A DNA stretch of 64,000 nt from an uncultured Porphyromonadaceae bacterium (GTDB lineage: Bacteria; Bacteroidota; Bacteroidia; Bacteroidales; Muribaculaceae), in contig CAMWSS010000005.1 of the NCBI GenBank assembly GCA_947177035.1, positions 25,411-89,410 on the forward strand, written 5' to 3'. Made by a program: the position numbers and the translations under genes. This document shows, piece after piece, positions 23,273 to 44,296 of this stretch. Below the pieces are notes generated by a model. The model was not told the DNA's origin. It did not search any database and worked only from the letters and a program-made list of their open reading frames with translations. Each line of letters begins with the position of its first letter. The first letter of the stretch is position 1.

Positions 23273-23343
23273 TGTCTTATGGTGTAATGGTAGCACTGCA
23301 GTTTTTGGTTCTGCCTGTCTTGGTTCGAATCCAGGTAAGACAA
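23273..23343 (+). tRNA. tRNA-Gln (anticodon TTG)
   Basis: Acceptor TGTCTTA/TAAGACA perfect, D-arm GGTGTAATGGTAGCAC, T-arm TGGTTCGAATCCA. Confidence 0.9.
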
Positions 23344-23355
23344 CGCAAGTTGACA

Positions 23356-23390: not shown

Positions 23391-23515
23391 GTCTATGGCT
23401 GTGTCCGATTGTGTGGAGGCCGGGTGCATGTGGTGTCAGGCCGTGGGGCTGTGCGTTTGATGAAAAAGTGATAAAAAATGTTAAAACGCCGCTCTCTTTA
23501 TAAGAGATTTATTTT

Positions 23516-23539
23516 TCAATTTCTCTTTATAAGAGAGTG
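23516..23539. repeat. left 24-bp inverted repeat (IR-L) of a putative invertible promoter element
   Basis: tcaatttctctttataagagagtg; exact reverse complement of 23734-23757. Confidence 0.9.
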
Positions 23540-23733
23540 GCGTTTTCAATACTGCAAATATACTCAAATTATTGGAAACAGTAAAATTAAATACTGTATA
23601 TTATTTTATACGACATTACCACAAACAACCCCAAAACAGACAAATTTTAAACATCGGCGGCATACTGACTAATCATGCGATGTTTTTATAAATTGATTAT
23701 CAGAGCATCTAATACTCCGGTCAACCACACTGA
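23540..23733. promoter_or_regulatory. putative invertible promoter segment (194 bp between perfect IRs)
   Basis: Bracketed by perfect 24-bp IRs directly upstream of upxY-like gene; TATATTTG -7-like box on minus strand at 23555-23562. Confidence 0.72.
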
Positions 23734-23757
23734 CACTCTCTTATAAAGAGAAATTGA
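23734..23757. repeat. right 24-bp inverted repeat (IR-R)
   Basis: cactctcttataaagagaaattga; 24/24 match to reverse complement of IR-L. Confidence 0.9.
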
Positions 23758-23941
23758 GGATAGGGATATTGTAATCCTGATCACAAAATTTGGAAAAAGC
23801 ACGTTGCCTGCCTCAGGCCGTTGGCTGTTTCTTTTGGCTTCGGTCTGCGTAACAGCCTGTGTATTAGTTGCATGGGTAGTTAAGCAGGAGTTGGAGGATT
23901 GTCCAAGACAGATTGGCGCTTAATCGAAATACGATTGAAAT

Positions 23942-24484
23942 ATGTCTGAAAACACAACAGGTAAACACTGGTTTGTGATGCGTGATCTTCGTCGCAGATC
24001 GGCCAAGGTTCTGGCTATACATGAGCTTGCTGATGCCGGTTTTGAGGTGTTTACGCCGATGGCAGAAATGCTGTTGAATGTCAATGGCAGGAAGATTCGC
24101 CGTTTGTTGCCGGTGATTCAGGACCTTCTGTTTGTGCATTCGGTCAAGGAGGATCTTGACCGTTTTGTGGAGGTGAAGCCTAATTTGCAGTATCGTTACA
24201 GCCACGGACGGAGTGTCAATGAGCCGACCATTGTCCGTCATGATGAGATGGAGCGGTTTATCAAAGCAGTCAGCAGTTCCGATGCTCCGAGGTATTATAT
24301 GCCAGGCGAGATCACTCCGTCGATGTATGGCCGTCGGGTCAGGATAGTTGGCGGTCCGCTCGATAATTATGAGGGCTGTCTTCTGTCTGTTCGCGGCATG
24401 AGGACTCGTCGTCTGATTGTCGAGATTTCGGGTCTGGTGTCGGCGTCGGTCGAGGTCAACCCCGATTTCATAGAGTTTGTCTGA
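23942..24484 (+). CDS. UpxY-family (NusG-like) transcription antiterminator
   Basis: KHWFVMRDLRRRSAKVLAIHELADAGFEVFTPM..., KOW-like VRIVGGPLDNYEGCLLSVRG; first gene of a capsule locus. Confidence 0.88.
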   Translation: MSENTTGKHWFVMRDLRRRSAKVLAIHELADAGFEVFTPMAEMLLNVNGRKIRRLLPVIQDLLFVHSVKEDLDRFVEVKPNLQYRYSHGRSVNEPTIVRHDEMERFIKAVSSSDAPRYYMPGEITPSMYGRRVRIVGGPLDNYEGCLLSVRGMRTRRLIVEISGLVSASVEVNPDFIEFV

Positions 24485-24493
24485 TCTGCAATT

Positions 24494-26050
24494 ATGGATG
24501 CTTTTCAAAAGAGTGCCACTGCAAGAATAGCCCGCAATACGTTGTTCTTATATGGACGGATGTTGCTGGGTATGTTTGTTTCATTATATACATCAAGATT
24601 GGTGCTTAATGCGTTGGGCGTTGAGGATTTTGGCATTTATGGAGTAGTTGGCGGTCTTGTATCAATGATGTCACTCTTTTCGTCGTCGCTTTCAGCATCA
24701 ATTTCGCGGTTTATGACCTATGAGTTGGGGCGTGGTGATTTTTCGAAGTTGAAAATGGTGTTTGCAACCTCAGTGTTGATACAGATAGCGATATGCTGTG
24801 TTGTGCTATTGATCGGTGAGTCAGTGGGGTTGTGGTTTATGAACGTGAAGATGGTTATTCCATCAGAGCGTATTGTTGCGGCCAATTGGATATATCAGGC
24901 TTCGATAGTCACTTTTATTGTTGGTTTAATCGGATGTCCGTTCAATGCAGTCATTGTGGCTCATGAAAAGATGGATGTATATGCTTATCTGGGGATTGCA
25001 GATGTGTTTGTCCGGTTGGCCATAGCCATATTTATTGCGTATAGTCCGTTGGTATTTGACCGTTTGATAGTTTATTCTGTGCTTTTGATGTTTGTCAGTG
25101 TAGGCATACAGTGTTGTTATTGGTTTTATTGTTTTGTTCATTTTCAAGAAACACGTACTTCACTTCGTTTTGACCGACAGTGTTGGAAGGAGATGGCTGG
25201 TTTTGCAGGATGGAACACTATTGGGTGTGCGGCAGGAGTGCTTAAAGATCAAGGAGTGAATGTATTGCTCAATCTATTTTTTGGTCCGGTTGTGAATACA
25301 GCTCGAGCAATCTCTACTCAGGTGTCTGGTGCAATCGGTGTTTTTTCGGGAAATTTCATGACAGCATTGAATCCTCAAATAATCAAAGGATATGCTTCGG
25401 GCGATATTGGTTATGCGTTTTATCTGGTTAGTCAAGGTGCACGATTCGGGTTTTATATAATGATGGTTCTTGTCATCCCGATTTATATTGTAACGCCTTT
25501 TATTCTTGATTTGTGGCTTGGCAAATATCCAGATAATACGATTGTTTTTTTGAGGTTAACTTTGATCAGTTGTTTAATTGATGTATTGTCCAGTACACTG
25601 ATAACATTGCAGGTGGCAACAGGTCGAATTCGTAATTATCAGATTGTTGTAGGAGGTCTGTTATTGCTTAATTTTCCGCTATCGTATATTGTGTTGAAGT
25701 CAGGTTTTTCGCCGTTCTCAGTATATGTGGTTGCTGTTATGGTTGGTGTCTGTTGTCTTGTGGCGCGTTTGATGTTTTTACGCAGTATGGTTGGGTTTTC
25801 TGTGGTGACATATTTTCGCAAAGTACTGGTAAATGTATTTGTTACTGTCATTGTTGCTTCGATGCCAGTTGCATTGGCAAGTATTGTTTGGACACCAGAT
25901 ACCTTTTTTAAACTGAGTCTGATTGCAGTTGTCAGTTGTGTTTCATCGGTTTTGTCGATCTTGTTTGTCGGTTGCAATAAAAGTGAAAGACGTTTTATTT
26001 TTGATAAAATCAGAACTGTTAGAGCGAAGTTTTCACGCATTTCGGCATGA
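24494..26050 (+). CDS. polysaccharide flippase (Wzx-like)
   Basis: 12-14 hydrophobic segments; LNALGVEDFGIYGVVGGLV typical of polysaccharide exporters. Confidence 0.88.
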   Translation: MDAFQKSATARIARNTLFLYGRMLLGMFVSLYTSRLVLNALGVEDFGIYGVVGGLVSMMSLFSSSLSASISRFMTYELGRGDFSKLKMVFATSVLIQIAICCVVLLIGESVGLWFMNVKMVIPSERIVAANWIYQASIVTFIVGLIGCPFNAVIVAHEKMDVYAYLGIADVFVRLAIAIFIAYSPLVFDRLIVYSVLLMFVSVGIQCCYWFYCFVHFQETRTSLRFDRQCWKEMAGFAGWNTIGCAAGVLKDQGVNVLLNLFFGPVVNTARAISTQVSGAIGVFSGNFMTALNPQIIKGYASGDIGYAFYLVSQGARFGFYIMMVLVIPIYIVTPFILDLWLGKYPDNTIVFLRLTLISCLIDVLSSTLITLQVATGRIRNYQIVVGGLLLLNFPLSYIVLKSGFSPFSVYVVAVMVGVCCLVARLMFLRSMVGFSVVTYFRKVLVNVFVTVIVASMPVALASIVWTPDTFFKLSLIAVVSCVSSVLSILFVGCNKSERRFIFDKIRTVRAKFSRISA

Positions 26051-27156
26051 ATGAAATTGTGAAAAAGGATAGATGTTGCGGATGTTCGGCCTGTTACTCG
26101 GTGTGTGTGGTCGGCTGCATAAATATGGTGCCGGATTCAGAGGGGTTTATGCATCCTGAAATTTCAGAGGATTTATGTATTGACTGTGGGCTGTGTCGGA
26201 AGGTTTGTCCAGTGTTAAATGTGATGGAGAGTGGCAATGTTGTGGGTACAGTGTATGCGGCTGTGTCGTCGTCAGGCGAATCTGTGAGAGCACATAGCTC
26301 TTCTGGTGGTGTTTTCACGGAATTGTCGCGTGTGGTGCTGGCTCATGGCGGAGTGGTTTTTGGTGTGCGTTTTGACTGTACGATGAAGGCGGTGCATGAT
26401 TTTACAGAAGATGAAGCTGGGCTGGATGCGTTCAGAGGTTCAAAATATGTCCAGAGCAGCGTCGGAGAGTCGTTCGGTCAAGTAAGGTCTTTTTTAGAAG
26501 GAGGCCGAAGGGTGTTGTTTAGTGGTACACCATGTCAGATTTCGGGCCTGAAGAGATATTTGAGACGAGAATACGACAATTTGTTGACTGTGGAAGTTGT
26601 GTGTCATGGAGTCCCATCTCCTGTAGTGCTTGGACATTACATAGATAGCATTTATGGATCAGTCGATGATGTATGTTTCCGGGACAAAGCGACTGGTTGG
26701 AAAAATTATAGTGTCAGGTTCGGCAATTATAGACAATGTTATAAAGATAACTATTTTATGCGTGTTTTTTTGGATGACTTGTCATTGCGTCCGTCTTGTT
26801 ATTCTTGTCCGTCTAAATCTGGAATTTCGGGGGCTGATATTACACTTGGTGATTTCTGGGGAATAGAACGATTAAATTCAGTAATTGATGATGACCGTGG
26901 GATATCGTTGGTGGTTGTCAGAACTTCGCGTGGAGCAGACGTGTTGCATGAGTCGCAGATCTCATTATTGGCTGAATATCCAGCATCAGTGTTAAAATAT
27001 AATCCTTCTTTCAGCCAATCGGCAAAGCGTCCTGTACATAGGGATATTTTTATGAAGGAATGTGTAGCAAAAGGCTTCATGAAAGCTTATGATATGATTT
27101 ATCCTCCGTCGCTCATTACTCAGATAAGGCGGCGTTTGAAATTATTGTTAAAGTGA
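26047..27156 (+). CDS. F420 hydrogenase/dehydrogenase beta-subunit-like 4Fe-4S protein
   Basis: CCGCSACYSVCVVGCI and CIDCGLCRKVCPV; FSGTPCQISGLKRYL; DITLGDFWGIE. Confidence 0.88.
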   Translation: MNEIVKKDRCCGCSACYSVCVVGCINMVPDSEGFMHPEISEDLCIDCGLCRKVCPVLNVMESGNVVGTVYAAVSSSGESVRAHSSSGGVFTELSRVVLAHGGVVFGVRFDCTMKAVHDFTEDEAGLDAFRGSKYVQSSVGESFGQVRSFLEGGRRVLFSGTPCQISGLKRYLRREYDNLLTVEVVCHGVPSPVVLGHYIDSIYGSVDDVCFRDKATGWKNYSVRFGNYRQCYKDNYFMRVFLDDLSLRPSCYSCPSKSGISGADITLGDFWGIERLNSVIDDDRGISLVVVRTSRGADVLHESQISLLAEYPASVLKYNPSFSQSAKRPVHRDIFMKECVAKGFMKAYDMIYPPSLITQIRRRLKLLLK

Positions 27157-28286
27157 AAGTCGGAATACTCACACTGCCGCCTCATTTCAATTATGGTGGA
27201 GTTATCCAGAACTGGGCTATGCATCAGTTATTACTGGAAATGGGGCATACTCCTGAAACAATATTTTTGGTCAGAAGCATTGCTAAAGCGTCGCTGCTGG
27301 TCAAGTTACGTCGTTGTGCTTCTTTTTTGAAACGTATTGTGACACGGATTCTGCTTCGTGATGACCGAATCATGATACGTAATCCTTTCAGAAGTGATTA
27401 TAATCCGGAATATATGGACGAGCGTTTTGTCGCAAGCTTGTCGCAAAGTCCGAAAATTGATTCGATGTCGAAGCTGCAAGGATTGATTGCTGCAAGTGAA
27501 TATCAGGCTTTTGTTGTTGGCAGCGATCAGGTGTGGCGGCAGGAATATTCTCCACGTATCGAGACTTTTTTTCTTGATTTTCTTGCAGATGATGATTTGG
27601 CTAAAAAAATTGCCTATTCAGTGTCATTTGGAAAGAAATGCAATTATATCGCATCGGATAAAATGCCGTTGTGTCGTGAATTGATAAAGCGTTTTGATGC
27701 AGTTTCTGTTCGTGAGGACGAAGGATTGGATATATTGAAAAATGATTTTGGATACGATAAGGCAATCAAGACTCTTGACCCGACACTTTTGATATCGCCA
27801 TCGGTTTATGACGGGCTGATAAAGCAGTCGGACAGAGCTGTTGCTGAACGATATATTGCAGCTTATATACTTGATGTAGAGTCCTGGAAAACGGAAATCT
27901 GTGGAGAGTCCGCAGAAAGATTAGGTTGTGGAATAAAATGGGAGTCTGTTATTTTTCAAGGCAGAAAACCTCTGACGATCAGTCAATGGCTTGCAATGAT
28001 TGCAGATTCTGAATTTGTGGTGACAGATTCATTCCATGGGTGTATTTTCTCTATAATTTTCAGAAAGCCATTTATCACAATCGTCAATAATGAGCGAGGC
28101 CGAAGCAGATTTGTGTCATTGTTGGGAACGCTTGGTCTTGAAGGTCGAATGGTTTGCTCCAGTGAGGAGTATACAAAAAGAAAATCAGAACTGTTTAGCC
28201 CTATAGATTATTCCAAAGTTGAGATTATTCTTACGCATCAGATAGAGATCAGTCGAAAATTTTTAAGCAATGCACTCAATGACTGA
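27153..28286 (+). CDS. polysaccharide pyruvyl transferase family protein
   Basis: GTG start; VGILTLPPHFNYGGVIQNWAMHQ, VVGSDQVWR, DSFHGCIFSIIFRKPF. Confidence 0.9.
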   Translation: MKVGILTLPPHFNYGGVIQNWAMHQLLLEMGHTPETIFLVRSIAKASLLVKLRRCASFLKRIVTRILLRDDRIMIRNPFRSDYNPEYMDERFVASLSQSPKIDSMSKLQGLIAASEYQAFVVGSDQVWRQEYSPRIETFFLDFLADDDLAKKIAYSVSFGKKCNYIASDKMPLCRELIKRFDAVSVREDEGLDILKNDFGYDKAIKTLDPTLLISPSVYDGLIKQSDRAVAERYIAAYILDVESWKTEICGESAERLGCGIKWESVIFQGRKPLTISQWLAMIADSEFVVTDSFHGCIFSIIFRKPFITIVNNERGRSRFVSLLGTLGLEGRMVCSSEEYTKRKSELFSPIDYSKVEIILTHQIEISRKFLSNALND

Positions 28287-29247
28287 TAGTTTGACAGGAA
28301 TGGATAAAGTGAGTATTATTGTCCCAGTGTATGGTGTCGAGCGTTATTTGTCGGAATGTGTGGATAGTCTGATAGATCAGACATATTGTAATATCGAGAT
28401 TATTCTGGTTGATGATGGAAGTCTTGATTGCTGTGGAAAAATCTGTGATGAATATGCTGAAAAAGATAAGCGTATAGTAGTTATTCATAAGCCTAATGGA
28501 GGAGTCTGTTCTGCTCGAAATGCTGGCCTTGCAGTGGCAACGGGTGAATGGATAATGTATGTTGACGGCGATGATTATGTGAATCATGAACTGGTTGGCA
28601 AGCTTGTTGCTAAGGCTTACGCTGAAAATGCAGACATTGTTGTTGCTGATTTTTATTTTGCTTTTCCATGCCAGATAAATGAAAGATATGGTTCTTATTC
28701 ATGGAACAAGCAAGGAATGGACGGCCTTGCCGAATATATATCGACAGTATGGACAGTGCTGTGGGGCAGTATTCATCGACGGAGGCTATATGAGTCCACA
28801 GGGTTCAGATGTCCGGAAAAAATAACTTATTGTGAAGATTTCCATTTGATGGTAAGGCTGTGTTTTGAGGCGAAACAGATAGCTAAAGTCAAAGAGGCTC
28901 TATATTATTATAGGCAACAGGAATCCAGTGTCATGCATAATCTGGATAAGAAGAGTGAGCATGACGAGCAGTGGGTATATAGTGACATTATTCGGTTTTT
29001 CAAGGAGCGTGGCGTTTATGAGCGCTTTAAGCGTCAGATGGCGTGGAGGTCTTTGAAGGCGGCACAGGAAATGGTTTTGGATACTGCTTTTTTTGATGAT
29101 TTTAGAGATTATAATCCGGATAAAGGTCCTTATATATGGTCGTGCCCGTTTATCGGACTGAAATTAAAATTGTTAATGTGGCTAATGACACATAGGTTGA
29201 CTTTTTTTGCAAGGGTTCTGGTGAATATTAGAAAGGTTGTTCGGTGA
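28270..29247 (+). CDS. glycosyltransferase family 2
   Basis: VSIIVPVYGVERYLSECVDSLIDQTYCNIEIILVDDGS, VDGDDYV. Confidence 0.92.
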   Translation: MHSMTDSLTGMDKVSIIVPVYGVERYLSECVDSLIDQTYCNIEIILVDDGSLDCCGKICDEYAEKDKRIVVIHKPNGGVCSARNAGLAVATGEWIMYVDGDDYVNHELVGKLVAKAYAENADIVVADFYFAFPCQINERYGSYSWNKQGMDGLAEYISTVWTVLWGSIHRRRLYESTGFRCPEKITYCEDFHLMVRLCFEAKQIAKVKEALYYYRQQESSVMHNLDKKSEHDEQWVYSDIIRFFKERGVYERFKRQMAWRSLKAAQEMVLDTAFFDDFRDYNPDKGPYIWSCPFIGLKLKLLMWLMTHRLTFFARVLVNIRKVVR

Positions 29248-29272
29248 TGAGAACGATTATATCAAAAGGAAA

Positions 29273-30253
29273 ATGATTTCGATAATAGTTCCTATATATA
29301 ATGCCGAGAAATATATCAGGCGCTGTATTGAATCGATACTTTGCCAGACGTATTGCGATTTTGAACTGCTGGTTGTTGATGACGGTTCAGATGATTCATC
29401 GCATGCAATTTGTGACGAGTATGCGAAACAGGATCATAGGGTAAGGGTCCTGCATAAGCGTAACGGAGGAGTCAGTTCTGCTCGTAATCTTGGCCTTGAT
29501 AATGCCAGCGGTGAATGGGTTGCATTTTGTGATGCAGATGATTATGTGTCGCCCTTGTATTTGGAGAATCTTTATCGGGCGACAGATAATTCGGACATAG
29601 ATCTTGTTTTAAATTATGCTATTGTTCATAATGGCGGAGAGATAAAAGAAGAATTATATCCGTCAAGAGTGGTGGATTTATCGGATGTAGGATCTCTTTT
29701 CTTTGAGAATGATTTGATCTGGCACACATCTCCATGGAGTAAGCTTTTTAGACGTAATATTATAGAATGTGAACGCTTGAGATTTGCCGAGGGGGTCAAT
29801 ATTGGAGAGGATGCAGTTTTTCTGTATACCTATATGCTCCATTGCCGGAAAATTCGAACGGTTTGTACATGTGACTATAATTATATGATCAATAGCGCTT
29901 CCGGATCGCTTACCCAACGTATTAATTCTTTCGCGTCAGAACTAAAGGGACTTGAGGCAATAACCGAAGCAGTGGAACGTATAAAGGCAATATGTCCGCA
30001 ATCTACTGTCTTGGAGTCCAAATTTGGATGGCTCACTGGTTGTTACAAAAGACGTACATTGTTGGCTCTGTATCATGAAAAGATGCGTAAGGACGATCGA
30101 ATTGCCTATCTTGTAGCAACTGATTTTACGGACTATTTTGCGCATTGTGTGGAAGATTCTGTGCAAGGCCGATTGTATCAATGGCTTTTAAAATCAGGTA
30201 ATTATAAAATGTATGATTTGGTAAGATACTTAATAAAGAAGATCAAATCATGA
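29273..30253 (+). CDS. glycosyltransferase family 2
   Basis: ISIIVPIYNAEKYIRRCIESILCQTYCDFELLVVDDGS; start chosen at MISIIVP. Confidence 0.92.
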   Translation: MISIIVPIYNAEKYIRRCIESILCQTYCDFELLVVDDGSDDSSHAICDEYAKQDHRVRVLHKRNGGVSSARNLGLDNASGEWVAFCDADDYVSPLYLENLYRATDNSDIDLVLNYAIVHNGGEIKEELYPSRVVDLSDVGSLFFENDLIWHTSPWSKLFRRNIIECERLRFAEGVNIGEDAVFLYTYMLHCRKIRTVCTCDYNYMINSASGSLTQRINSFASELKGLEAITEAVERIKAICPQSTVLESKFGWLTGCYKRRTLLALYHEKMRKDDRIAYLVATDFTDYFAHCVEDSVQGRLYQWLLKSGNYKMYDLVRYLIKKIKS

Positions 30254-31209
30254 ATTATACTGCAGTTATACGCACCCTTGGCAGGGCAGGAGAGAAGTAT
30301 CAGCGGTTGCTTGATTCTTTGTGTGGGCAGACAATACGGCCGGCAAGGATTCTGGTGTATATTGCCGACGGGTATCCTCTGCCGGCTGAAACTTGTGGCA
30401 GGGAGGAGTATATTTATGTCAGGAAAGGCATGGTCGCTCAGCGTGCGTTGCGTTATGATGAAGTGGAGACGGAGTATATTCTGTTTGTCGATGATGATGT
30501 TTGTTTGCCTGTGGATGGTGTTGAAAAATTGTTTGGTGAGCTGAGGCGCCATGATGCCGATGTGGTTGCTCCAGATGTGTTTGACAATGCTTCGCGGGGA
30601 TTGATGTCGGAAATCATGATGATGCTTTCCGGCAGGATGCGCGCACGGCGCGGTGACAGGAAGTGGGCGTATAAGGTGATGGCCACAGCCGGATATTCAT
30701 ATAATAAATCACCGGAAAACGGAGCTTATCTGTCGCAGACAAATGCGGGGCCTTGTTTCTTGTGTCGGAAATCGGATTTTTTGAAAATCAGATTTGAAGA
30801 TGAGGTATGGCTGGACAGGATCGGCTATGCGATTGGCGATGATCAGATAATGTTTTATAAAATGTATCTTGCCGGGTTGAAATCGCTGACGGTTTTCGGG
30901 ACCGGAATAGAGCATCTTGATGCCGGAGGGAATCTTGGCAATAAAGAGAAGGAGCTTATGCTGATTGAGGGCGATTATTTTTTCAGGAAGGTGTTTTGGC
31001 ACCGGTTTCTGCAGTTGCCTGAGCGCAATTGGCGTAAGCGTATGTGGAACGCCGTGTGCATCAATTACTTCTATCTGTTCGGTTTCGTTGTTTCATGGCT
31101 AAAGGGTGAGCGTGATGTCCTCAGGGTTAAACGTGCTGGACTCGCTTCTGCCAGATCTTTTTTAAAGAGTGATCAATATGCATCACTGCCCAAAGTCGAG
31201 AAGATATGA
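30250..31209 (+). CDS. glycosyltransferase (GT2/GT-A-like)
   Basis: YTAVIRTLGRAGEKYQRLLDSLCGQTIRPARILVYIADG, LFVDDDV. Confidence 0.85.
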   Translation: MNYTAVIRTLGRAGEKYQRLLDSLCGQTIRPARILVYIADGYPLPAETCGREEYIYVRKGMVAQRALRYDEVETEYILFVDDDVCLPVDGVEKLFGELRRHDADVVAPDVFDNASRGLMSEIMMMLSGRMRARRGDRKWAYKVMATAGYSYNKSPENGAYLSQTNAGPCFLCRKSDFLKIRFEDEVWLDRIGYAIGDDQIMFYKMYLAGLKSLTVFGTGIEHLDAGGNLGNKEKELMLIEGDYFFRKVFWHRFLQLPERNWRKRMWNAVCINYFYLFGFVVSWLKGERDVLRVKRAGLASARSFLKSDQYASLPKVEKI

Positions 31210-32147
31210 CTGTTGTCCCTATAGTTTTTGCGTTTGACAACAGGCTCACTATGCCTGCTGCCGTCACGTTGACTTCGTTGATGATGAATGCCCGTGAAGA
31301 TACATTTTATGATATCTTCATCCTTCATTCTGAGAAAGAGCGTATCGACAAAGATATGCTGTCAAAAGTAACTGATCGATATTCCAATTGTCGGATCTCT
31401 TATCGAACGGTTGGTAACGTTTTTGATGATGCGTTTGAAATCAGAGGAATAACCACGCCGGCATATTACCGGTTGCTGATTCCTCGACTGATTCCCGAAT
31501 ATGACAAGGTTATCTATTCCGATGCCGATATAATCTTTCGTCGGGATCTGACGGAAGTCTATTCAATCGATCTTGGGGTTGATTATGTTGCAGGAGTCAA
31601 GGATCCGGGGCTGAATCTTACTGCTGATGGTATAAAATATCTGGATACATTGCCTGGCGTTACATTTGGGAAATATATCAACTCCGGTTTCTTGATCATT
31701 AATTCCAGACAGATCAATCAGGATGGCGTTGTTGACAAACTGGTTGCTACAGCTAAAGGGCAATGGAAATATCAGGATCAAGATACTATAAATATGGTGT
31801 GTGCTGATCGGATCAAGTTCATACCGCCGGCGTATAATATGTCAGACTATGTGTTTCTATATGGTTTGAACAATCAGTCTGAATGGACTCAACTATATTC
31901 ACCAGCTGATTTTATCGCCGGAACAGTAAATGGCAATATCCATTACAACGGCCACAAACCGTGGAAAAAATGGTGTGTGAATTTCGACATCTGGTGGGAA
32001 TATTACCGCAAGTCGCCGGTGTTTGACCAGAAGTTTTACTTCGATTTCTATTATAGCCGGCTCAACGAGCTGGATCAGTTGCCGCTGCTTAAGCGCATAA
32101 AAATTCTTGTCCGCTATTTTGTGTATGGCCGCAGAAAGAATCCCTAA
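31206..32147 (+). CDS. glycosyltransferase family 8
   Basis: PIVFAFDNRLTMPAAVTLTSLM, VIYSDADIIFRRDL, YINSGFLIIN, HYNGHKPWK. Confidence 0.92.
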   Translation: MTVVPIVFAFDNRLTMPAAVTLTSLMMNAREDTFYDIFILHSEKERIDKDMLSKVTDRYSNCRISYRTVGNVFDDAFEIRGITTPAYYRLLIPRLIPEYDKVIYSDADIIFRRDLTEVYSIDLGVDYVAGVKDPGLNLTADGIKYLDTLPGVTFGKYINSGFLIINSRQINQDGVVDKLVATAKGQWKYQDQDTINMVCADRIKFIPPAYNMSDYVFLYGLNNQSEWTQLYSPADFIAGTVNGNIHYNGHKPWKKWCVNFDIWWEYYRKSPVFDQKFYFDFYYSRLNELDQLPLLKRIKILVRYFVYGRRKNP

Positions 32148-33117
32148 GGTGTCGGTCATCGCGCCTGTCTATGGAGTGGAGCGCTTTATTGGCCGGGCTG
32201 TGGAGTCGATGATGGCTCAGACGCTGGATGACGTGGAGTTTATCTTTGTAGACGATTGCACGCCCGATGGCAGCGTCAGTGTGCTGCGCGACGTCGTGGT
32301 CCGCTATCCAGAGCGGCAGGTGAGGATTCTGCGTCATGACGTCAACCGTGGACTGCCTGCCGCACGCAACACCGGTCTGGACGTTGCGCGTGGCGAATAC
32401 ATATTTCATTGGGACAGCGATGACTTTGCCGAGCCGGATATGCTTGAGCGGCTCTATGCTGAAGCCGCGGCCATGGGGCGTGACTATGTGTGGTGCGACT
32501 GGTTTCTTACGTTCAGCACCAATTCGCGGGTGATGCGTCAGCCGTCGGCCGCGACTCCGCGCGAGGCGCTCTCCATAGTTCTGGCCGGCGGCATGAAATA
32601 TAATGTGTGGAACAAGCTGGTTGCCCGCAAGCTGTATGATGAAACCGGTATCCGTTTTCCCGAATCACGAGCCATGGGCGAGGATATGACGATGATAAAA
32701 CTGCTGGCCAAGGCCCGCAGCGTGGGTCACGTCGACTGTCCGCTCTATCATTATATACGGACAAACAGCGGAGCCATGACCCAGATTTATTCGCCGCGTC
32801 ATTTGGAGGAATTGCGCCGGAATACTGCCGATGTGTGTGATTATCTCCAGACTGAAATATCTGGTGCTGCCATAGATCGTGAAATCAACTGGTTCAAATT
32901 GAACGTCAAGTTGCCGTTTCTGTTCAGCGGACGCAAGGCTGACATGAAGTTGTGGCGGCAGTGGTTTCCCGAGTCCAACGGGAGCATCATGAGCAACAGG
33001 CGCCAGGCGTTGCGCACACGCGTTCTGCAATGGACGGCGGCGCATCGGCTCGGAGTTGTGAATGATCTATACAATATTCTTGTTTTCAGGATTATTTATG
33101 GTGTGATATACAGATGA
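32125..33117 (+). CDS. glycosyltransferase family 2
   Basis: KVSVIAPVYGVERFIGRAVESMMAQTLDDVEFIFVDDCTPDGS, WDSDDF; start at MAAERIPK. Confidence 0.92.
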   Translation: MAAERIPKVSVIAPVYGVERFIGRAVESMMAQTLDDVEFIFVDDCTPDGSVSVLRDVVVRYPERQVRILRHDVNRGLPAARNTGLDVARGEYIFHWDSDDFAEPDMLERLYAEAAAMGRDYVWCDWFLTFSTNSRVMRQPSAATPREALSIVLAGGMKYNVWNKLVARKLYDETGIRFPESRAMGEDMTMIKLLAKARSVGHVDCPLYHYIRTNSGAMTQIYSPRHLEELRRNTADVCDYLQTEISGAAIDREINWFKLNVKLPFLFSGRKADMKLWRQWFPESNGSIMSNRRQALRTRVLQWTAAHRLGVVNDLYNILVFRIIYGVIYR

Positions 33118-34442
33118 AGGCACTGAATCCGCTTTTAATTCTGGTGGCTGTGGTGATCACGAGCTGCTACTTTTTCCCGTTTGTTTTGGCCGCATTTCCG
33201 GTAGCCAATTCCAAGATGATTCTTGCCGCGGTCGGGCTGGTCATGCTTGGGGTGGAGCTGGTGTATAAAAGCAATGCGGTTGTGGATCACGATTTTCTGA
33301 AGCTGTCGCTCTGGGCATTCTGTATCTCGCTGATGGCATATTTCAGCATGATGTTCAACAATACTCCGGATGATGAGTTCACGACGTATTTCATGTCGAT
33401 GTGGGTGTGGCTTGGCGGGGCATATGCTGCGGTTTCTTTTATCAAATGGGTGCATGGCGGGGTGTCTGTCCCACTGGTTGTCAACTATCTGTTGGCGGTC
33501 TGTGTCATACAGTGTGTATTGGCTGTTGTTTTCGACAACAGCCAGGCGGCATCTGATTGGGCCGACAGGACTTTTTCCGGCGAAGGATATATGGGCAACA
33601 CCGACAGCCGCATGCATGGAATAGGCTGTTCGTTAGACGTGGCCGGCTTCCGTTTCGCATCGGTGATCTGCATGGCGGCATTCATGGCAACGTATTTCAG
33701 ATCAGCCAGATCCTTGTTTCCGGACTATGTATATATTGCCGCGATATGTTTCATAAGCGTTGTCGGCAATATGATTTCGCGTTCCACTGTGACGGGTTCG
33801 TGTATCGGCATGGCGTTTATCATTTGCTACGGAGTGTTCATGAAAAGGGACGTAAGGCTGTCGGCTATGCTTGTGGCGTTCGTGGTTGTGGTGGCGGCGG
33901 CCTGCGTGTCGCTCTACAGTGTCAGCGACTCTTTCAGAGATAATTTCCGGTTCGGATTCGAAGGCTTTTTCTCTCTTGCCGAGACGGGCCAGTGGCATAC
34001 AAGTTCCAACGAAATTCTGAAGAACATGGTCGTATGGCCCGACAACCTGAAAACGTGGGTGATCGGCGATGGATATATCAACAATCCCCTCGACAAGACG
34101 CTGGATTCGTTTGACCCATATTATACAGGACCGGCCTATGGCGGTTATTACAAGGGCACCGATATCGGCTATCTGCGCTATATCTTCTATTTTGGCGTGT
34201 TGGGCCTCGCGGCATTCTCGCTGTTTTTCATCAACGCGTGCGGAGTGTGCGTCCGCCGGTTCGGTGCATTCAGATGGATGTTTGTCATGATCCTTGCCAT
34301 GAATTTCATTCAGTGGTTCAAAGTGTCGTCAGACCTGTTTGTGGTGTTTGCCCTGTTTCTGTGTATCTCGGCCAGGGAAAACGATGATTATATGACGCGT
34401 GGCCTGCTGGCGGGCGGGGCGCGAAAAATGAACTGTCAGTGA
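33114..34442 (+). CDS. O-antigen/EPS polymerase (Wzy-like)
   Basis: ~10 TM segments with a large periplasmic loop, located between GT genes. Confidence 0.75.
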   Translation: MKALNPLLILVAVVITSCYFFPFVLAAFPVANSKMILAAVGLVMLGVELVYKSNAVVDHDFLKLSLWAFCISLMAYFSMMFNNTPDDEFTTYFMSMWVWLGGAYAAVSFIKWVHGGVSVPLVVNYLLAVCVIQCVLAVVFDNSQAASDWADRTFSGEGYMGNTDSRMHGIGCSLDVAGFRFASVICMAAFMATYFRSARSLFPDYVYIAAICFISVVGNMISRSTVTGSCIGMAFIICYGVFMKRDVRLSAMLVAFVVVVAAACVSLYSVSDSFRDNFRFGFEGFFSLAETGQWHTSSNEILKNMVVWPDNLKTWVIGDGYINNPLDKTLDSFDPYYTGPAYGGYYKGTDIGYLRYIFYFGVLGLAAFSLFFINACGVCVRRFGAFRWMFVMILAMNFIQWFKVSSDLFVVFALFLCISARENDDYMTRGLLAGGARKMNCQ

Positions 34443-35569
34443 AAATCGTCTACTGTCATTGCTCGGTGTATAATCCGGGCGGAATGGAGCGGGTGTTGCT
34501 CAACAAGGTCAGATGGCTGGCCGGAGCGGGCCACGAAGTGATCGTCGTTACTACCGACCAGCAGGGTAGGGCGCCGTTCTATGCGTTCCCTCCCGAGGTC
34601 AGGATGGAGGATCTCGACATCAACTATTCGGTCGACAACAACAAGCCGCTAAGTCAGCGCATTCTGTCGTATCTGCGCAAACGCCGCCTGCATCGCAGCC
34701 GCCTCACGCAGCTGCTGATGGCCGAGCGCCCCGACATCACGGTGTCGCTCTATCCGTCGGAGTCATCGTTTATTCCCGATATAAAAGACGGCAGCAAGAA
34801 GGTGCTTGAACTTCATTTCAACCGCTACTTCCGGCTTCAATATGGCCGCGGCGGGCTGACCGGTCTGATCGACCGCTTCCGCAGCCGGAGAGACGTGGCT
34901 CTGGCGTCGCGTTTCGACCGTTTTGTCGTGCTTACGGAAGAAGACAGGAAATACTGGGGCGATATGCCGGCGATATCCGTCATCCCCAATGCCGCGCTGC
35001 CCATGCCAGAGGTGAGCGACTGTTCGGCCAGAAGAGTGATCGCGGTGGGCCGTCTTGACTATCAGAAAGGGTTTGACCGGCTCATCAAGGCATGGGATGT
35101 CGTGAAGCGCAGTTCCATCTCCGACGGATGGCGCCTTGACATATTCGGCCAGGGCGAGTGGCGCGATATGCTCGCCGGAATGATCGCTTCCAGAGGTTTG
35201 TCGGACTCCGTGGCGCTCAGACGGCCCACTTCCGGCATAGCCCGGGAATATGCCGGAAGCTCCATGCTGGTCATGACTTCACACTTCGAGGGTTTCCCGA
35301 TGGTCATGATCGAGGCGATGTCGGCCGGACTGCCGGTGGTGACGTTCGGTTATAAATGCGGCCCTGCCGACATCATCGCCGACGGAGAAGACGGAATCAT
35401 CGTGCCCGACGGCGACATCGAGGCGCTGGCCGCCGCCATGCTGTCGCTTATGGCCGACGACTGCCGCCGCAGGGCAATGGGACAGAAGGCCCGCGGGGTG
35501 GTCGGCCGATATTCTGAAGACGCCGTGATGGCGCGCTGGACATCGTTGTTTGAAGATCTCGTAAAGTAA
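34439..35569 (+). CDS. glycosyltransferase family 4
   Basis: GGMERVLLNKVRWLA; IAVGRLDYQKGFDRLIKAW; SHFEGFPMVMIEAMSAGLPVV. Confidence 0.93.
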   Translation: MKIVYCHCSVYNPGGMERVLLNKVRWLAGAGHEVIVVTTDQQGRAPFYAFPPEVRMEDLDINYSVDNNKPLSQRILSYLRKRRLHRSRLTQLLMAERPDITVSLYPSESSFIPDIKDGSKKVLELHFNRYFRLQYGRGGLTGLIDRFRSRRDVALASRFDRFVVLTEEDRKYWGDMPAISVIPNAALPMPEVSDCSARRVIAVGRLDYQKGFDRLIKAWDVVKRSSISDGWRLDIFGQGEWRDMLAGMIASRGLSDSVALRRPTSGIAREYAGSSMLVMTSHFEGFPMVMIEAMSAGLPVVTFGYKCGPADIIADGEDGIIVPDGDIEALAAAMLSLMADDCRRRAMGQKARGVVGRYSEDAVMARWTSLFEDLVK

Positions 35570-36813
35570 TGAAGGAAAAGGGTAGGATAGTTCAGATAAA
35601 TCCGGTGTTGCGCATCAGCACATCCACCGGCCGCATAATGCAGGAAATAGGGGCGCTTGCCGTGAGTGAGGGCTGGCGCAACTGGTGTGCCTATGGCAAA
35701 GGCCGTGATGGCCTGCGCGCATGTGCCACCGAGACGATTCCTGTCGGCGGCCGGTGGAGCACTGCGGCCCACGGCCTGCTCACGCGTGCGTTTGACCGCC
35801 ACGGACTGGGTTCGGCCGCCGCAACTCGCCGCTTTGTCAGGACGCTTCAGGAAATCTCCCCCGACATAGTCCACATCCACAACATCCACGGATATTTCCT
35901 CAATTACCCGATCCTTTTCGACTATCTCGCCAATAGCGACGTGAAGGTGGTCTGGACCGTACACGACTGCTGGCTCTACACCGGCCACTGCTATCATTAC
36001 TCATTTGCCGGATGCGACAGGTGGCAGAGCGGCTGCGGCGACTGCCCGCAGCGCGGTGAGTTCCCGCGCAGCGTCATCGCCGACCGTTCGCGCCGCAATT
36101 TCATCGACAAGAAAAAATACTTCACATCGGTGCCCGCCGACCGCATGGTCATCGTCACCGTGTCGGAGTGGATGCGCGGCGAGATGTCGCGCTCCTTCCT
36201 CCGCGACTATCCCTTCAGGGTGATCCACAACGGCATCGACACTTCGGTGTTCCGCCCCTGTGGCGGCGGCGACGTGCGCGCCCGCCTCGGCATCGCCCCT
36301 GACAAAAAGATAATTCTTGGCCTGGCCAGCGTGTGGAGCGCTGAAAAAGGCCTCGGCGACTTCATCAGCCTCTCGCGCCTGCTCGCCCCCGACGAAACGA
36401 TCGTGATGGTGGGAGTCGACCCGAAAACCGCCCGGAAACTGCCGCCGGCGATTCATTGCATACGCCGCACCGAAAACATCGATATGCTGGCGCAGCTCTA
36501 CTCCGAGGCCACGGCGTTTGTCAACCCCACGTGGCAGGACAACTATCCCACCGTCAATCTCGAAGCGATATCATGCGGGACTCCGGTGGTGACATATCGC
36601 ACTGGCGGAAGCATCGAGGCGATCACCCCTGACACCGGCCTTGTGGTCGACCAAGGAGATGTCGGCGGATTGCTTGATGCCGTCAGGAAAATAGAGGCGC
36701 TCGGCAAGGAACGGTTCACACATCCGTGCCGCCAATACGCGCTTGCCAACTTTCGCAAGGAAGACCGCTATGAGGAATACTTGCGACTCTATGAAAAACT
36801 GCTCACACATTAG
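35569..36813 (+). CDS. glycosyltransferase family 4
   Basis: HIHNIHGYFLNYPILFDYL; GLASVWSAEKGLGDF; NPTWQDNYPTVNLEAISCGTPVVTY. Confidence 0.92.
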   Translation: MKEKGRIVQINPVLRISTSTGRIMQEIGALAVSEGWRNWCAYGKGRDGLRACATETIPVGGRWSTAAHGLLTRAFDRHGLGSAAATRRFVRTLQEISPDIVHIHNIHGYFLNYPILFDYLANSDVKVVWTVHDCWLYTGHCYHYSFAGCDRWQSGCGDCPQRGEFPRSVIADRSRRNFIDKKKYFTSVPADRMVIVTVSEWMRGEMSRSFLRDYPFRVIHNGIDTSVFRPCGGGDVRARLGIAPDKKIILGLASVWSAEKGLGDFISLSRLLAPDETIVMVGVDPKTARKLPPAIHCIRRTENIDMLAQLYSEATAFVNPTWQDNYPTVNLEAISCGTPVVTYRTGGSIEAITPDTGLVVDQGDVGGLLDAVRKIEALGKERFTHPCRQYALANFRKEDRYEEYLRLYEKLLTH

Positions 36814-36827
36814 TAAATATAGTAGAT

Positions 36828-37937
36828 ATGAGGATATTACAGATAGGAAAATTCTGGCCCGTGCTGGGTGGCGTGGAGAAGGTCATGCTTGACCTCACGC
36901 GCGGTCTGTCTGCAAGGAATATCGAGTGCGACATGCTGTGTGCGGCCGCCGATGGCGCTCCGCGTGTATTCGCGCTGAATTCCTGCGGCAATGTGATCGC
37001 CGTCCGCACTCTGCTGAAGGCCAGCGGAACGATGATCGCGCCGCAGATGGTGTCGGTGTTGCGACGCATAGCCCCGCGCTATGATATAATCCACGTCCAC
37101 CATCCCGACCCGATGGCCGCTCTGGCTCTGTTTCTGAGCGGATACAAAGGGAAGGTCGTGCTTCACTGGCATTCCGATATTCTGCGCCAGCGCCTGCTGC
37201 TCAAGGCCTACCGGCCGCTTCAGCGATGGCTGCTGCGCCGGGCCGACAGGGTGATATGCACTTCGCCACGCTATGCCGAAGGCTCCGGGGCGCTCCGCAG
37301 TGTGGCCGACAAACTCGAGTGCGTGCCGATCGGCGTGGCTCCGGTCATTCCTGACCCCGATGCGGTCGATCAAGTGCGCCGGCAGACCCGCGGCAAGCGG
37401 ATCATCTTCTCGCTCGGACGCATGGTCCCTTACAAAGGCTTCGACAGTCTGATCGCTGCCGCCAGCCGCCTCCCCGACGACTATCTTGTCGTGATCGCCG
37501 GCTCCGGACCGCTGCACCAGAGCCTGAGCCGGCTCGTCGACCAACACGGACTGGCCGGAAAAGTGATCATGCCGGGGCGCATCTCCGACCGCGAGCGCGA
37601 CGCATGGATCGGGGCGGCTTCAGTGTTCTGCCTTCCGTCGGTCGAGAAGACCGAAGCCTATGGCGTGGTGCTCGTCGAGTCCATGTCGGCGGGGCTTCCT
37701 GTCGTGGCCACCGAGATTCCCGGTTCGGGCACTTCGTGGGTCAACGCCCACGGCGTCTCGGGGCTGAACGTGCCATGCTCCGCGCCCGACAAACTGGCCG
37801 AGGCCCTGATCAAGGTGGCCGACGGCGTGCACTCCGCCGAATTCCGCGTCAACGCGCGCCGGCGCTGGGAACGCATGTTCACCATCGATGCGTTCATCGA
37901 CAATATCACAGCTCTGTATCTTAATCTCGCTATTTAA
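36828..37937 (+). CDS. glycosyltransferase family 4
   Basis: IGKFWPVLGGVEKVMLDLTRGL; FSLGRMVPYKGFDSLI; EAYGVVLVESMSAGLPVVATEIPGSG. Confidence 0.93.
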   Translation: MRILQIGKFWPVLGGVEKVMLDLTRGLSARNIECDMLCAAADGAPRVFALNSCGNVIAVRTLLKASGTMIAPQMVSVLRRIAPRYDIIHVHHPDPMAALALFLSGYKGKVVLHWHSDILRQRLLLKAYRPLQRWLLRRADRVICTSPRYAEGSGALRSVADKLECVPIGVAPVIPDPDAVDQVRRQTRGKRIIFSLGRMVPYKGFDSLIAAASRLPDDYLVVIAGSGPLHQSLSRLVDQHGLAGKVIMPGRISDRERDAWIGAASVFCLPSVEKTEAYGVVLVESMSAGLPVVATEIPGSGTSWVNAHGVSGLNVPCSAPDKLAEALIKVADGVHSAEFRVNARRRWERMFTIDAFIDNITALYLNLAI

Positions 37938-37954
37938 ACCAAACACATCCCACA

Positions 37955-38683
37955 ATGAATTTTGACGTCAACAATTCCACCACGGCAAGTCAGGTCAACG
38001 TGTGTGACCCCTCCGGTTGCAACGACATGTGCCGAATCAATCCGGTCGACGTGTCATCGCGTCGCCGGGAGCGTCTTAATCCCTTCAGGCTCTCAGCTTC
38101 GCAGAAAATCGTCAAACGCACGTTCGACGTCATCATCGCCATCATGGCCCTCATTCTCTTCTCGCCGATAATCCTGATCATCGCTCTGATAATCTGGCTC
38201 AACGACTTCCACAGCCCAATTTTCTCGCAAACAAGGGTAGGACTCGCCGGCAAAGAGTTCACGATCTATAAATTCCGCTCCATGCGCATCGACTCCGAGT
38301 GCGACGGTGTGCCGCGGCTTTGCTGCGACAACGACTCGCGCCTCACCCGCATCGGCGCCTTCCTGCGCGACCATCACCTCGACGAATTCCCTCAGCTCTG
38401 GAATGTGCTCCGGGGCGACATGAGCGTGGTGGGCCCCCGGCCGGAGCGACCGTTTTTCACCGACAAGATAATAGCCAGCTTCCCTGACTATTGCCTCCTG
38501 TTCCACATCCGTCCGGGGCTGTTTTCCGACGCCACGCTCCGCAATGGCTACACCGAAACCATCGGCCAGATGGTGCGGCGCGCCGAGATGGATCTGGAAT
38601 ATCTCCGCAATTACAGTTTTTTCCGCGACATCAAGATAATCTGGCAGACTTCTGTCTCGATCATCAGCGGCAAAAAATTCTGA
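37955..38683 (+). CDS. priming sugar transferase (undecaprenyl-phosphate sugar phosphotransferase)
   Basis: KRTFDVIIAIMALI, SPIFSQTRVGLAGKEFTIYKFRSM, HLDEFPQLWNVLRGDMSVVGPRPE. Confidence 0.95.
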   Translation: MNFDVNNSTTASQVNVCDPSGCNDMCRINPVDVSSRRRERLNPFRLSASQKIVKRTFDVIIAIMALILFSPIILIIALIIWLNDFHSPIFSQTRVGLAGKEFTIYKFRSMRIDSECDGVPRLCCDNDSRLTRIGAFLRDHHLDEFPQLWNVLRGDMSVVGPRPERPFFTDKIIASFPDYCLLFHIRPGLFSDATLRNGYTETIGQMVRRAEMDLEYLRNYSFFRDIKIIWQTSVSIISGKKF

Positions 38684-38690
38684 CACGCAA

Positions 38691-38969
38691 ATGAAACTCA
38701 AAACCAATCTGAAACTCCGTGAGGTCGCCGACCGCTACATGCTGGTCGACGTTTCCGACTCCGACGCCAACATAACCGACGTCTACACCCTCAACTCCAC
38801 CGCGGCCTTCGTCTGGCGCGCCGCGGCATCCGCCCCCTGCGTGCCGTCGCCGCAGCAACTGGCCGATATGCTCTGCGCCGACTATGACGTTGACCCGGAG
38901 GTGGCTCTGGCCGACGTGTCGCGCCTGCTGTCGGTGTGGCGGGAATCAGGACTCATTGTTCCCGACTGA
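38691..38969 (+). CDS. PqqD-like small protein
   Basis: VYTLNSTAAFVW......LADMLCADYDVDPEVALADVSRLLSVWRESGLI matches PqqD fold pattern. Confidence 0.75.
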   Translation: MKLKTNLKLREVADRYMLVDVSDSDANITDVYTLNSTAAFVWRAAASAPCVPSPQQLADMLCADYDVDPEVALADVSRLLSVWRESGLIVPD

Positions 38970-41890: not shown

Positions 41891-44296
41891 GTGTCAATGT
41901 CACCCGACAATCAACCCCGATTCTCAAAAGGGCCCAACCTTGCCGACATTCTCCTCTACCTGCTCTCGAAGTGGCCGTGGTATCTGCTTTCACTGCTGAT
42001 CTGCCTCTCCTTCGCGTGGTATCGCTCGGCAACCGCCCCGCAGGTCTTCTATGCTCAGACCAAAGTGATCATCAAAGACCCGTCGAACAAGACGTCGACC
42101 GGCGGTTTTGACCGCTACGACAATTCCATCAACCGCGTCAACGTCACCAATGAGATCCTCCAGTTCCGGTCAAAACGCCTGCTGCAGGAAGTGGTGGGAC
42201 GAACGCGGGCCGACGTGCGCTACACAACGCGCCGCGGACTCCGCACCGTCAACATCTATGGCGAGACCCCCGTCGAGATCATATTCCCGACGATCAGTCC
42301 CCGAGCCGGAATCGCCTTCTCCCTCACTCCGGTCGACTCCGTCTCGGCCCGCATCACGGTGGTCCGCGACGACCAGGAGAGCCACACGTCAGTGCCATAT
42401 GGCTCCGTCTGCAAAATCGAAGACACAGACATCATCGTCAACAAAACCCGCGACATGTCGCCTCAATGGTATGGCCGCGAGATCCGGATTGTCAAAGTGC
42501 CCGAATTCCAGGCCGTCAACGAACTTTCATCCCACCTGGGCATACGCCAGGAGGAAAAAGACGGAACCATCATCAACATCGCCGTCACCTCAGGCTCGCG
42601 CGAACTCGACATCAGGATTCTCGACACAATAATCGAGGTCTACAACGAAGAGTCCATCAACGACAAGAACCAGGTGGCAGTCAACACCGCCAAATTCATC
42701 GACGAGCGACTCCGCATCATCGGAAGCGAGCTCGGCGGAGTGGAAAACGAACTCGAATCCTACAGGCGCGACAATCAGGTGGTCAACATCGGTTCGATGA
42801 CCGCGCGCTACATGAACGAGTCTGCCCGCTACAACGCCGACGCCCTTCTCTATGACACACAGCTCCGCATCGCCACCTTCATCAAGGAATACCTGACCGA
42901 TCCAGCCCGCGCCAACGACCTGATCCCGACCAACCTCGGTGTCAACGACCAGGCCATCGAGAGCCAGATCTCACACTATAACTCCGTCAAACTCCAGCGC
43001 GACAGGCTCATCGGCGAAAGCTCCGAAGCCAACCCCGTCATCGAGGAGCTGACAAACACCATGCAGGAACTGCGCAAAAACATTCTCAGCGGAGTCGACA
43101 ACATCATCACCTCCGTAAAGGTCAAGCGCAGCGACGCCCGCGAATATGAAGGAGCCGCCGAATCGCGCATTGCCTCCATTCCCCGCAAGGAGCGCGAAAT
43201 CCTCTCCATCGAGCGCCAGCAGAAAATCAAGGAGTCGCTCTATCTCTTCCTGCTCAACCGCCGCGAAGAAAACGCCCTCTCGCAGGCTATGGCCGACAAC
43301 AACGCCCGCATCATCGACGGACCCGAAGGCAGCGTGGTCATGATCTCCCCGCGCCGCGACCGCATCATGATGCTCGGCGGACTGGCCGGTGCCTTCATCC
43401 CGACAGTAATCCTGCTGCTCGCTGCATTCATGAACACCAAAGTCCGCGGACGCCGCGACATCAAAGAGGCCGTCTCGGTGCCGTTTCTCGGCGAAGTGCC
43501 CTTCAACGCAATGATGAACCGCAAACGCCGTTCGCTGCTGACCGGACCGAAAGCCCATGCCGACCGCCAGCAACTGATGCAATCGCTGACCGGCGACGCT
43601 TTCCGCATCGTCATGGCCAACATCGCCATGATGACAAAAAGCAACGGACGCGACGCCAAAGTGCTGATGACAACCTCATTCCGCGAAGGCGCCGGCAAAA
43701 CATACTCCACCATCAACATTGCCGAAGCCATCGCCGCCGGAAGCAAGCGGGTGGTCCTCGTTGACCTCGACATACGCAAAGGCACGCTCTCAAGGCGCGA
43801 AAACATGGCCGCAAACAAAATCGGAATCACAAACTATCTCTATGACGACACCGTGACCGTCGACGACATAATCGAGCGTCGCGACGGACGCCCCGACATA
43901 ATCCCGTCGGGAATCGTGCCGCCAAACCCCGTCGAACTGCTCAACAGCCCAAGGCTCGACGCACTCTTTGCCGAACTGCGCCGGCGATATGACTTCATTG
44001 TCGTCGACTCGGTGCCGGTCGGCATGGTGGCCGACGCCACTGTCAGCTGCCGCATTTCCGATCTCACCCTCTTCATTGTCAGGGTCGGCAGTCTCGACCG
44101 TCGCCAGCTCCCCGAAATCCAGGCCCTCTATGACGAAGGCTCGCTCGGACGCTTCGGCATAATCCTCAACGGCGTTTCGCTCAACAGCGGCCAAGGCTAT
44201 GGCTATGGTTACGGCTATGGCTATGGCTACGGATATGGTTATGGCTATGGTTACGGCCACAAACACAAGCGCCGCCGCTTTCGTCTGAAATTCTAA
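41891..44296 (+). CDS. polysaccharide co-polymerase/BY-kinase (Wzc-like)
   Basis: Wzz N-term, Walker A-like TSFREGAGKTYSTINIA, VVLVDLDIRKGTLS, DFIVVDSVPVG; Tyr-rich (GY)10 tail. Confidence 0.93.
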   Translation: MSMSPDNQPRFSKGPNLADILLYLLSKWPWYLLSLLICLSFAWYRSATAPQVFYAQTKVIIKDPSNKTSTGGFDRYDNSINRVNVTNEILQFRSKRLLQEVVGRTRADVRYTTRRGLRTVNIYGETPVEIIFPTISPRAGIAFSLTPVDSVSARITVVRDDQESHTSVPYGSVCKIEDTDIIVNKTRDMSPQWYGREIRIVKVPEFQAVNELSSHLGIRQEEKDGTIINIAVTSGSRELDIRILDTIIEVYNEESINDKNQVAVNTAKFIDERLRIIGSELGGVENELESYRRDNQVVNIGSMTARYMNESARYNADALLYDTQLRIATFIKEYLTDPARANDLIPTNLGVNDQAIESQISHYNSVKLQRDRLIGESSEANPVIEELTNTMQELRKNILSGVDNIITSVKVKRSDAREYEGAAESRIASIPRKEREILSIERQQKIKESLYLFLLNRREENALSQAMADNNARIIDGPEGSVVMISPRRDRIMMLGGLAGAFIPTVILLLAAFMNTKVRGRRDIKEAVSVPFLGEVPFNAMMNRKRRSLLTGPKAHADRQQLMQSLTGDAFRIVMANIAMMTKSNGRDAKVLMTTSFREGAGKTYSTINIAEAIAAGSKRVVLVDLDIRKGTLSRRENMAANKIGITNYLYDDTVTVDDIIERRDGRPDIIPSGIVPPNPVELLNSPRLDALFAELRRRYDFIVVDSVPVGMVADATVSCRISDLTLFIVRVGSLDRRQLPEIQALYDEGSLGRFGIILNGVSLNSGQGYGYGYGYGYGYGYGYGYGYGHKHKRRRFRLKF
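44195..44254 (+). repeat. in-frame hexanucleotide repeat (GGN-TAY)x10 encoding (GY)10
   Basis: Read directly: ggctat/ggttac/ggatat variants, 10 units of 6 bp at the 3' end of the wzc-like gene. Confidence 0.95.

Follow-up and report, generated by a model that had tools for sequence, protein, structure and literature searches.

A predicted invertible promoter upstream of the upxY capsule operon in a Muribaculaceae genome and its candidate tyrosine recombinase

The stretch of DNA analyzed here (64 kb, referred to as the window) belongs to an uncultured member of the Muribaculaceae and contains a capsule locus (Table 1). The first gene of the capsule operon, described as UpxY-like in the initial annotation, encodes a bona fide UpxY transcription antiterminator, its product scoring 126.5 bits against the NF033644 model (curated cut-off of 100). 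In addition to the functions listed in Table 1, the polysaccharide operon encodes a membrane protein that resembles a flippase and has no Pfam match. The capsule operon also ends with a small PqqD-like protein, encoded beside the sugar transferase (window 38691-38969). The DNA between the tRNA-Gln gene and upxY contains the elements that are the subject of this report, and the repeat-bracketed segment in it is intergenic, in agreement with its earlier description as non-coding.

Table 1. Features of the capsule locus and of the cassette upstream of upxY (window coordinates)
Feature	Position	Strand	Remarks
tRNA-Gln, upstream neighbor	23273-23344	+	
Terminator-like hairpin	23483-23546	-	third core and left arm, then T-rich tract; -27.7 kcal/mol, z -6.2
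Third copy of the 15-bp core	23493-23507	+	direct to left-arm core, inverted to right-arm core
Left arm of the cassette	23516-23539	+	24 nt; core TCTCTTTATAAGAGA at 23522-23536
Predicted invertible interior	23540-23733		non-coding
-7 promoter box TATATTTG (TAnnTTTG)	23562-23555	-	points away from upxY
Right arm of the cassette	23734-23757	+	exact reverse complement of left arm; core at 23737-23751
Leader upstream of upxY	23758-23941	+	
upxY, transcription antiterminator	23942-24484	+	first capsule-operon gene; NF033644
Polysaccharide operon	24494-38683	+	FrhB-like protein, pyruvyl transferase, glycosyltransferases, sugar transferase
Wzc-like protein	41891-44296	+	GNVR and AAA domains

Upstream of upxY, two arms of 24 nt each are 100% complementary and lie 194 nt apart, which confirms the perfect inverted repeats noted initially in their coordinates, length, complementarity and gap. 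This is the longest exact inverted repeat in the window (loop of 60-1000) and it is far beyond chance, as no repeat longer than 16 bp arose in 30 simulated windows of 64 kb that kept the dinucleotide transitions, or when the AT-rich local region was simulated 5000 times. Both arms of the original description are real, but a third copy of the core, located outside the left arm, had been overlooked. The part that is common to other cassettes is just the 15-bp core class TCTCT-N5-AGAGA, represented in the window by TCTCTTTATAAGAGA, and the shared repeat of a cassette is sometimes no longer than this; the functional site is the 15-bp core. An exact search revealed no further copy of the window core elsewhere in the genome. 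By itself this result would have agreed in part with what the initial annotation regarded as evidence against a switch, but when the N5 spacer was relaxed the core class gave two more inverted pairs.

The only Bacteroidota-type promoter motif (TAnnTTTG) between tRNA-Gln and upxY, TATATTTG, is placed inside the cassette near one arm and is accompanied by a weak -33 element. The promoter points outward across the left arm, toward the terminator-like hairpin that is found directly downstream of it in this orientation. Although the third core is direct to that of the left arm, the hairpin is possible since the flanks of the third core complement the left arm. With its sole promoter facing this hairpin and not upxY, the cassette is predicted to be OFF in the assembled orientation.

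The genome sequence was read in the neighborhood of its recombinases, its UpxY genes and the cores. A TCTCTTATNNAGAGA pair on contig C16 (C16 cassette) precedes a second UpxY-like gene (68 bits, under the 100-bit cut-off) which is accompanied by glycosyltransferases and a weak Wzy_C match, and its promoter box, TAACTTTG, points at the UpxY-like gene, that is, ON. Another pair, with the core TCTCTTGGCAAGAGA (C9 cassette, on contig C9; L255, 1501-1676), appears only after relaxing TCTCTTATNNAGAGA to TCTCT-N5-AGAGA and is located between manC, which encodes mannose-1-phosphate guanylyltransferase, and a divergent gene for a putative lipoprotein. Since its TAACTTTG box faces the lipoprotein gene, a flip may toggle transcription between two operons. 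A lone core at position 19630 of contig C2, with an outward TAAATTTG promoter facing a third UpxY gene, had no detectable second arm, and this capsule locus possibly represents a relic-like switch locked ON. In the congeners G010 and G005, no long inverted repeats were found upstream of the UpxY homologs.

Possible signs of inversion come from the assemblies of two relatives. In G304, contigs C34 and C30 have an overlap of 141 bp and separate precisely where, past the core, the left and right outer flanks cease to be alike, and in G101 two contigs are identical over their first 119 bp, a core included, and then diverge. An assembler would yield breaks like these if an interior end were joined to both flanks, and they fit the coexistence of both orientations, other causes of graph branching also being possible. 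Between genomes, no homologous cassettes in opposite orientation were found, the few comparable ones having the same orientation, and at the window locus inversion is predicted from the sequence. It is unlikely that the window cassette is a relic, a former inverton that is now locked OFF in this lineage. The single assembly shows no inverted form at this locus and the C2 capsule locus, with its single core and ON-directed outward promoter, looks like such a locked relic, but the window arms are identical over 24 bp and not just over the core of 15 bp, hinting at an exchange in the recent past, and the genome encodes an intact candidate invertase (C43).

In the initial annotation, capsule promoters of Bacteroides were described as flipped by serine (Mpi) or tyrosine recombinases, and the invertase of the window cassette was expected to act in trans, no recombinase gene being present in the window. 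No match to serine recombinases (PF00239) was detected in the genome (99.8% complete), which leaves no Mpi in this organism, while five tyrosine recombinases are encoded, one of XerC type, one of XerD type and three, designated C16, C62 and C43 after the contigs that encode them, with arm-binding, SAM-like and integrase domains. Evidence to choose among these came from relatives. Of 40 loci from relatives, 16 have a recombinase immediately beside the core pair, and all 16 enzymes are relatives of C43 (42-63% identity to C43 and 24-30% to C16); in a phylogenetic tree C43 groups with these cassette-adjacent enzymes and both C16 and C62 fall outside. In the reverse test, starting from C43-like genes with enough flank, a core pair was present just 3' of the gene in 13/50 cases and 5' in none (0/50). 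C43-like genes are also enriched in the genomes with cassettes (31/35, vs 235/399 overall; Fisher p 7e-5), the remaining 4/35 having no C43-like match, and the genome with the closest relative of C43 (84%, G010) does not contain the TCTCTTATNNAGAGA motif. The C43 protein (416 aa) retains the Arg, Lys, Arg, His and Tyr that are catalytic in the recombinase family. The first His of HxxR is replaced by a Tyr in C43 and likewise in its relatives. In the genome of the window no cassette adjoins the C43 gene, so that the enzyme would act in trans. Altogether, the tyrosine and trans parts of the initial proposal are supported and the serine alternative is not, and C43, identified by family-wide adjacency, is likely the trans-acting invertase of the window cassette.

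That the cassette is invertible and served instead by C16 is quite improbable, and this enzyme, a candidate by virtue of adjoining the second cassette (at ~430 bp) with its integrase domains intact, was dropped as the motif-adjacent recombinases elsewhere are all C43 relatives. None of the 16 recombinases adjacent to the site class in other genomes is on the C16 branch, the C16 protein is 97% identical to one from another genus whose genome has no TCTCTTATNNAGAGA motif, and its gene adjoins tRNA-Met and two HTH_17 genes, a setting like that of a mobile-element integrase.

The TCTCTTATNNAGAGA motif was detected in 86 of 399 genomes of the family, distributed in 15 of 30 genera, mostly as inverted pairs among those listed. 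A set of 60 distinct cassettes was compared, drawn from the genome of the window, relatives in the family and named Bacteroidales records, and including one locus of Phocaeicola sartorii (L221). The N5 spacer was identical within each of the 60 inverted pairs, with 20 different spacers across pairs, in comparison to a mean of 5.4 identical pairs (maximum of 13) after random re-pairing of spacers; five neighboring core pairs with unlike spacers appear to be adjacent or unpaired sites. The sites are inverted palindromes with a matched central spacer, as in promoter invertons of tyrosine recombinases. It is a general feature of tyrosine recombinase biochemistry that the crossover region needs a matched spacer, and the pattern observed, matched within pairs and variable between them, fits such a region and would not be expected at a transposon end or regulator site. 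It is hardly credible that the repeats are the ends of a MITE or operator/terminator hairpins instead of recombination sites, since the left arm and the third core do form a terminator-like hairpin but no target-site duplication occurs outside the window arms and the exact repeat is single-copy in the genome, unlike a MITE, and for regulator sites spacers matched within pairs yet varying between pairs would be needless.

Promoters are also a consistent element of the class. An outward TAnnTTTG box at 35 nt or less from an arm was present in 57 of the 60 cassettes, at both ends in only one (shuffle expectation, 3.2), and its distance to the arm was nearly always 12-20 nt, with one case at 0. 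The genes beside the cassettes (n = 47) encode UpxY (8), DUF3575 proteins (7), Mfa1-type fimbrial subunits (4), SusC/RagA (2) and radical SAM peptide maturases (2), among others, which points to several surface functions as predicted targets of these cassettes. Four loci of relatives (L186, L188, L152 and L215) show two neighboring cassettes or three cores beside one recombinase. In P. sartorii, which is outside the Muribaculaceae, the core pair (L221, 6283-6492) is located 3' of a C43-like recombinase (60% identity) and is followed by a gene for a 453-aa putative lipoprotein.

Based on this evidence, the segment 23516-23757 is very probably an inverton that switches the upxY capsule operon by means of a trans-acting tyrosine recombinase, for which C43 is the likeliest candidate. 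This reading is built on sequence, namely the repeats, the motif and direction of the promoter, the hairpin, the site class, the spacer pattern and the adjacency of recombinases in relatives, and the original suggestion of an invertible capsule promoter before upxY gains support from the identity of UpxY, the outward promoter, the family-wide site class and the candidate recombinase. According to the model, the recombinase would cut within TCTCT-N5-AGAGA cores having identical N5 and the DNA between two inverted cores would flip. In the assembled (OFF) state the single TAnnTTTG promoter would fire away from upxY into the hairpin. Recombination between the left and right arms would turn the promoter toward upxY (ON), with one core in a leader that, as flipped in silico, extends ~216 nt before the ATG, and recombination between the third core and the right arm would also result in an ON state, with two cores left in a leader of ~245 nt. 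A broader proposal, to which we give slightly less than even credence, is that a small regulon of promoter switches, spread over the genome, is under the control of one solitary tyrosine recombinase and comprises the two UpxY polysaccharide loci and the divergent manC/lipoprotein pair. The shared arms would bring the enzyme to each cassette, private 5-bp spacers would prevent recombination across cassettes, and the third site of the window would allow three states: OFF into the terminator, ON with one leader site and ON with two.

Invertible promoters upstream of upxY are likewise found in the Mpi capsule promoters of Bacteroides fragilis, and in Mpi-like ones of B. intestinalis, and there, as proposed here, one enzyme serves distant capsule loci. 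Mpi is a serine recombinase with arms of sequence ARACGTTCGTN (PMC8375218), while the window arms lack this sequence and carry the TCTCT-N5-AGAGA core, in a genome in which no serine recombinase was found; the window cassette is therefore not a member of the Mpi system, though it would work alike. The closest system in behavior is that of Tsr19 (BF2766) of B. fragilis. This tyrosine recombinase inverts two promoters, one local and the other distant (IVp-I and IVp-II), the local region having repeats duplicated at one end, and transcription is lower when extra repeat copies separate the promoter from the gene (PMC4747536, PMC3090145). By analogy, this suggests that the third core at the window locus may grade expression. 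In contrast to Tsr19, C43 is not encoded beside a cassette, and two UpxY loci are among the targets predicted for it. A study of the hCom2 community of human gut strains (2025) linked inverton groups to neighboring invertase groups, including promoter invertons near UpxY whose neighboring tyrosine invertase genes are so oriented that the promoter cannot drive them (PMC11892184), a logic similar to the one described here. The TCTCT/AGAGA sequence is absent from the text of that article, and it is possible that the window site class overlaps one of the hCom2 inverton groups. In the open-access literature searched, no paper was found that deals with invertible promoters in Muribaculaceae, or with recombinases and capsular polysaccharide in this family. 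The arrangement is of a known kind, and no description of the TCTCT-N5-AGAGA site or of its likely enzyme was found in that literature.

With the site class, its spacer rule and a candidate enzyme in hand, it would be possible to predict from sequence where Muribaculaceae phase-vary their capsules, fimbriae and SusC-type proteins, and to test directly how a single invertase can act on several switches and yet keep them separate.
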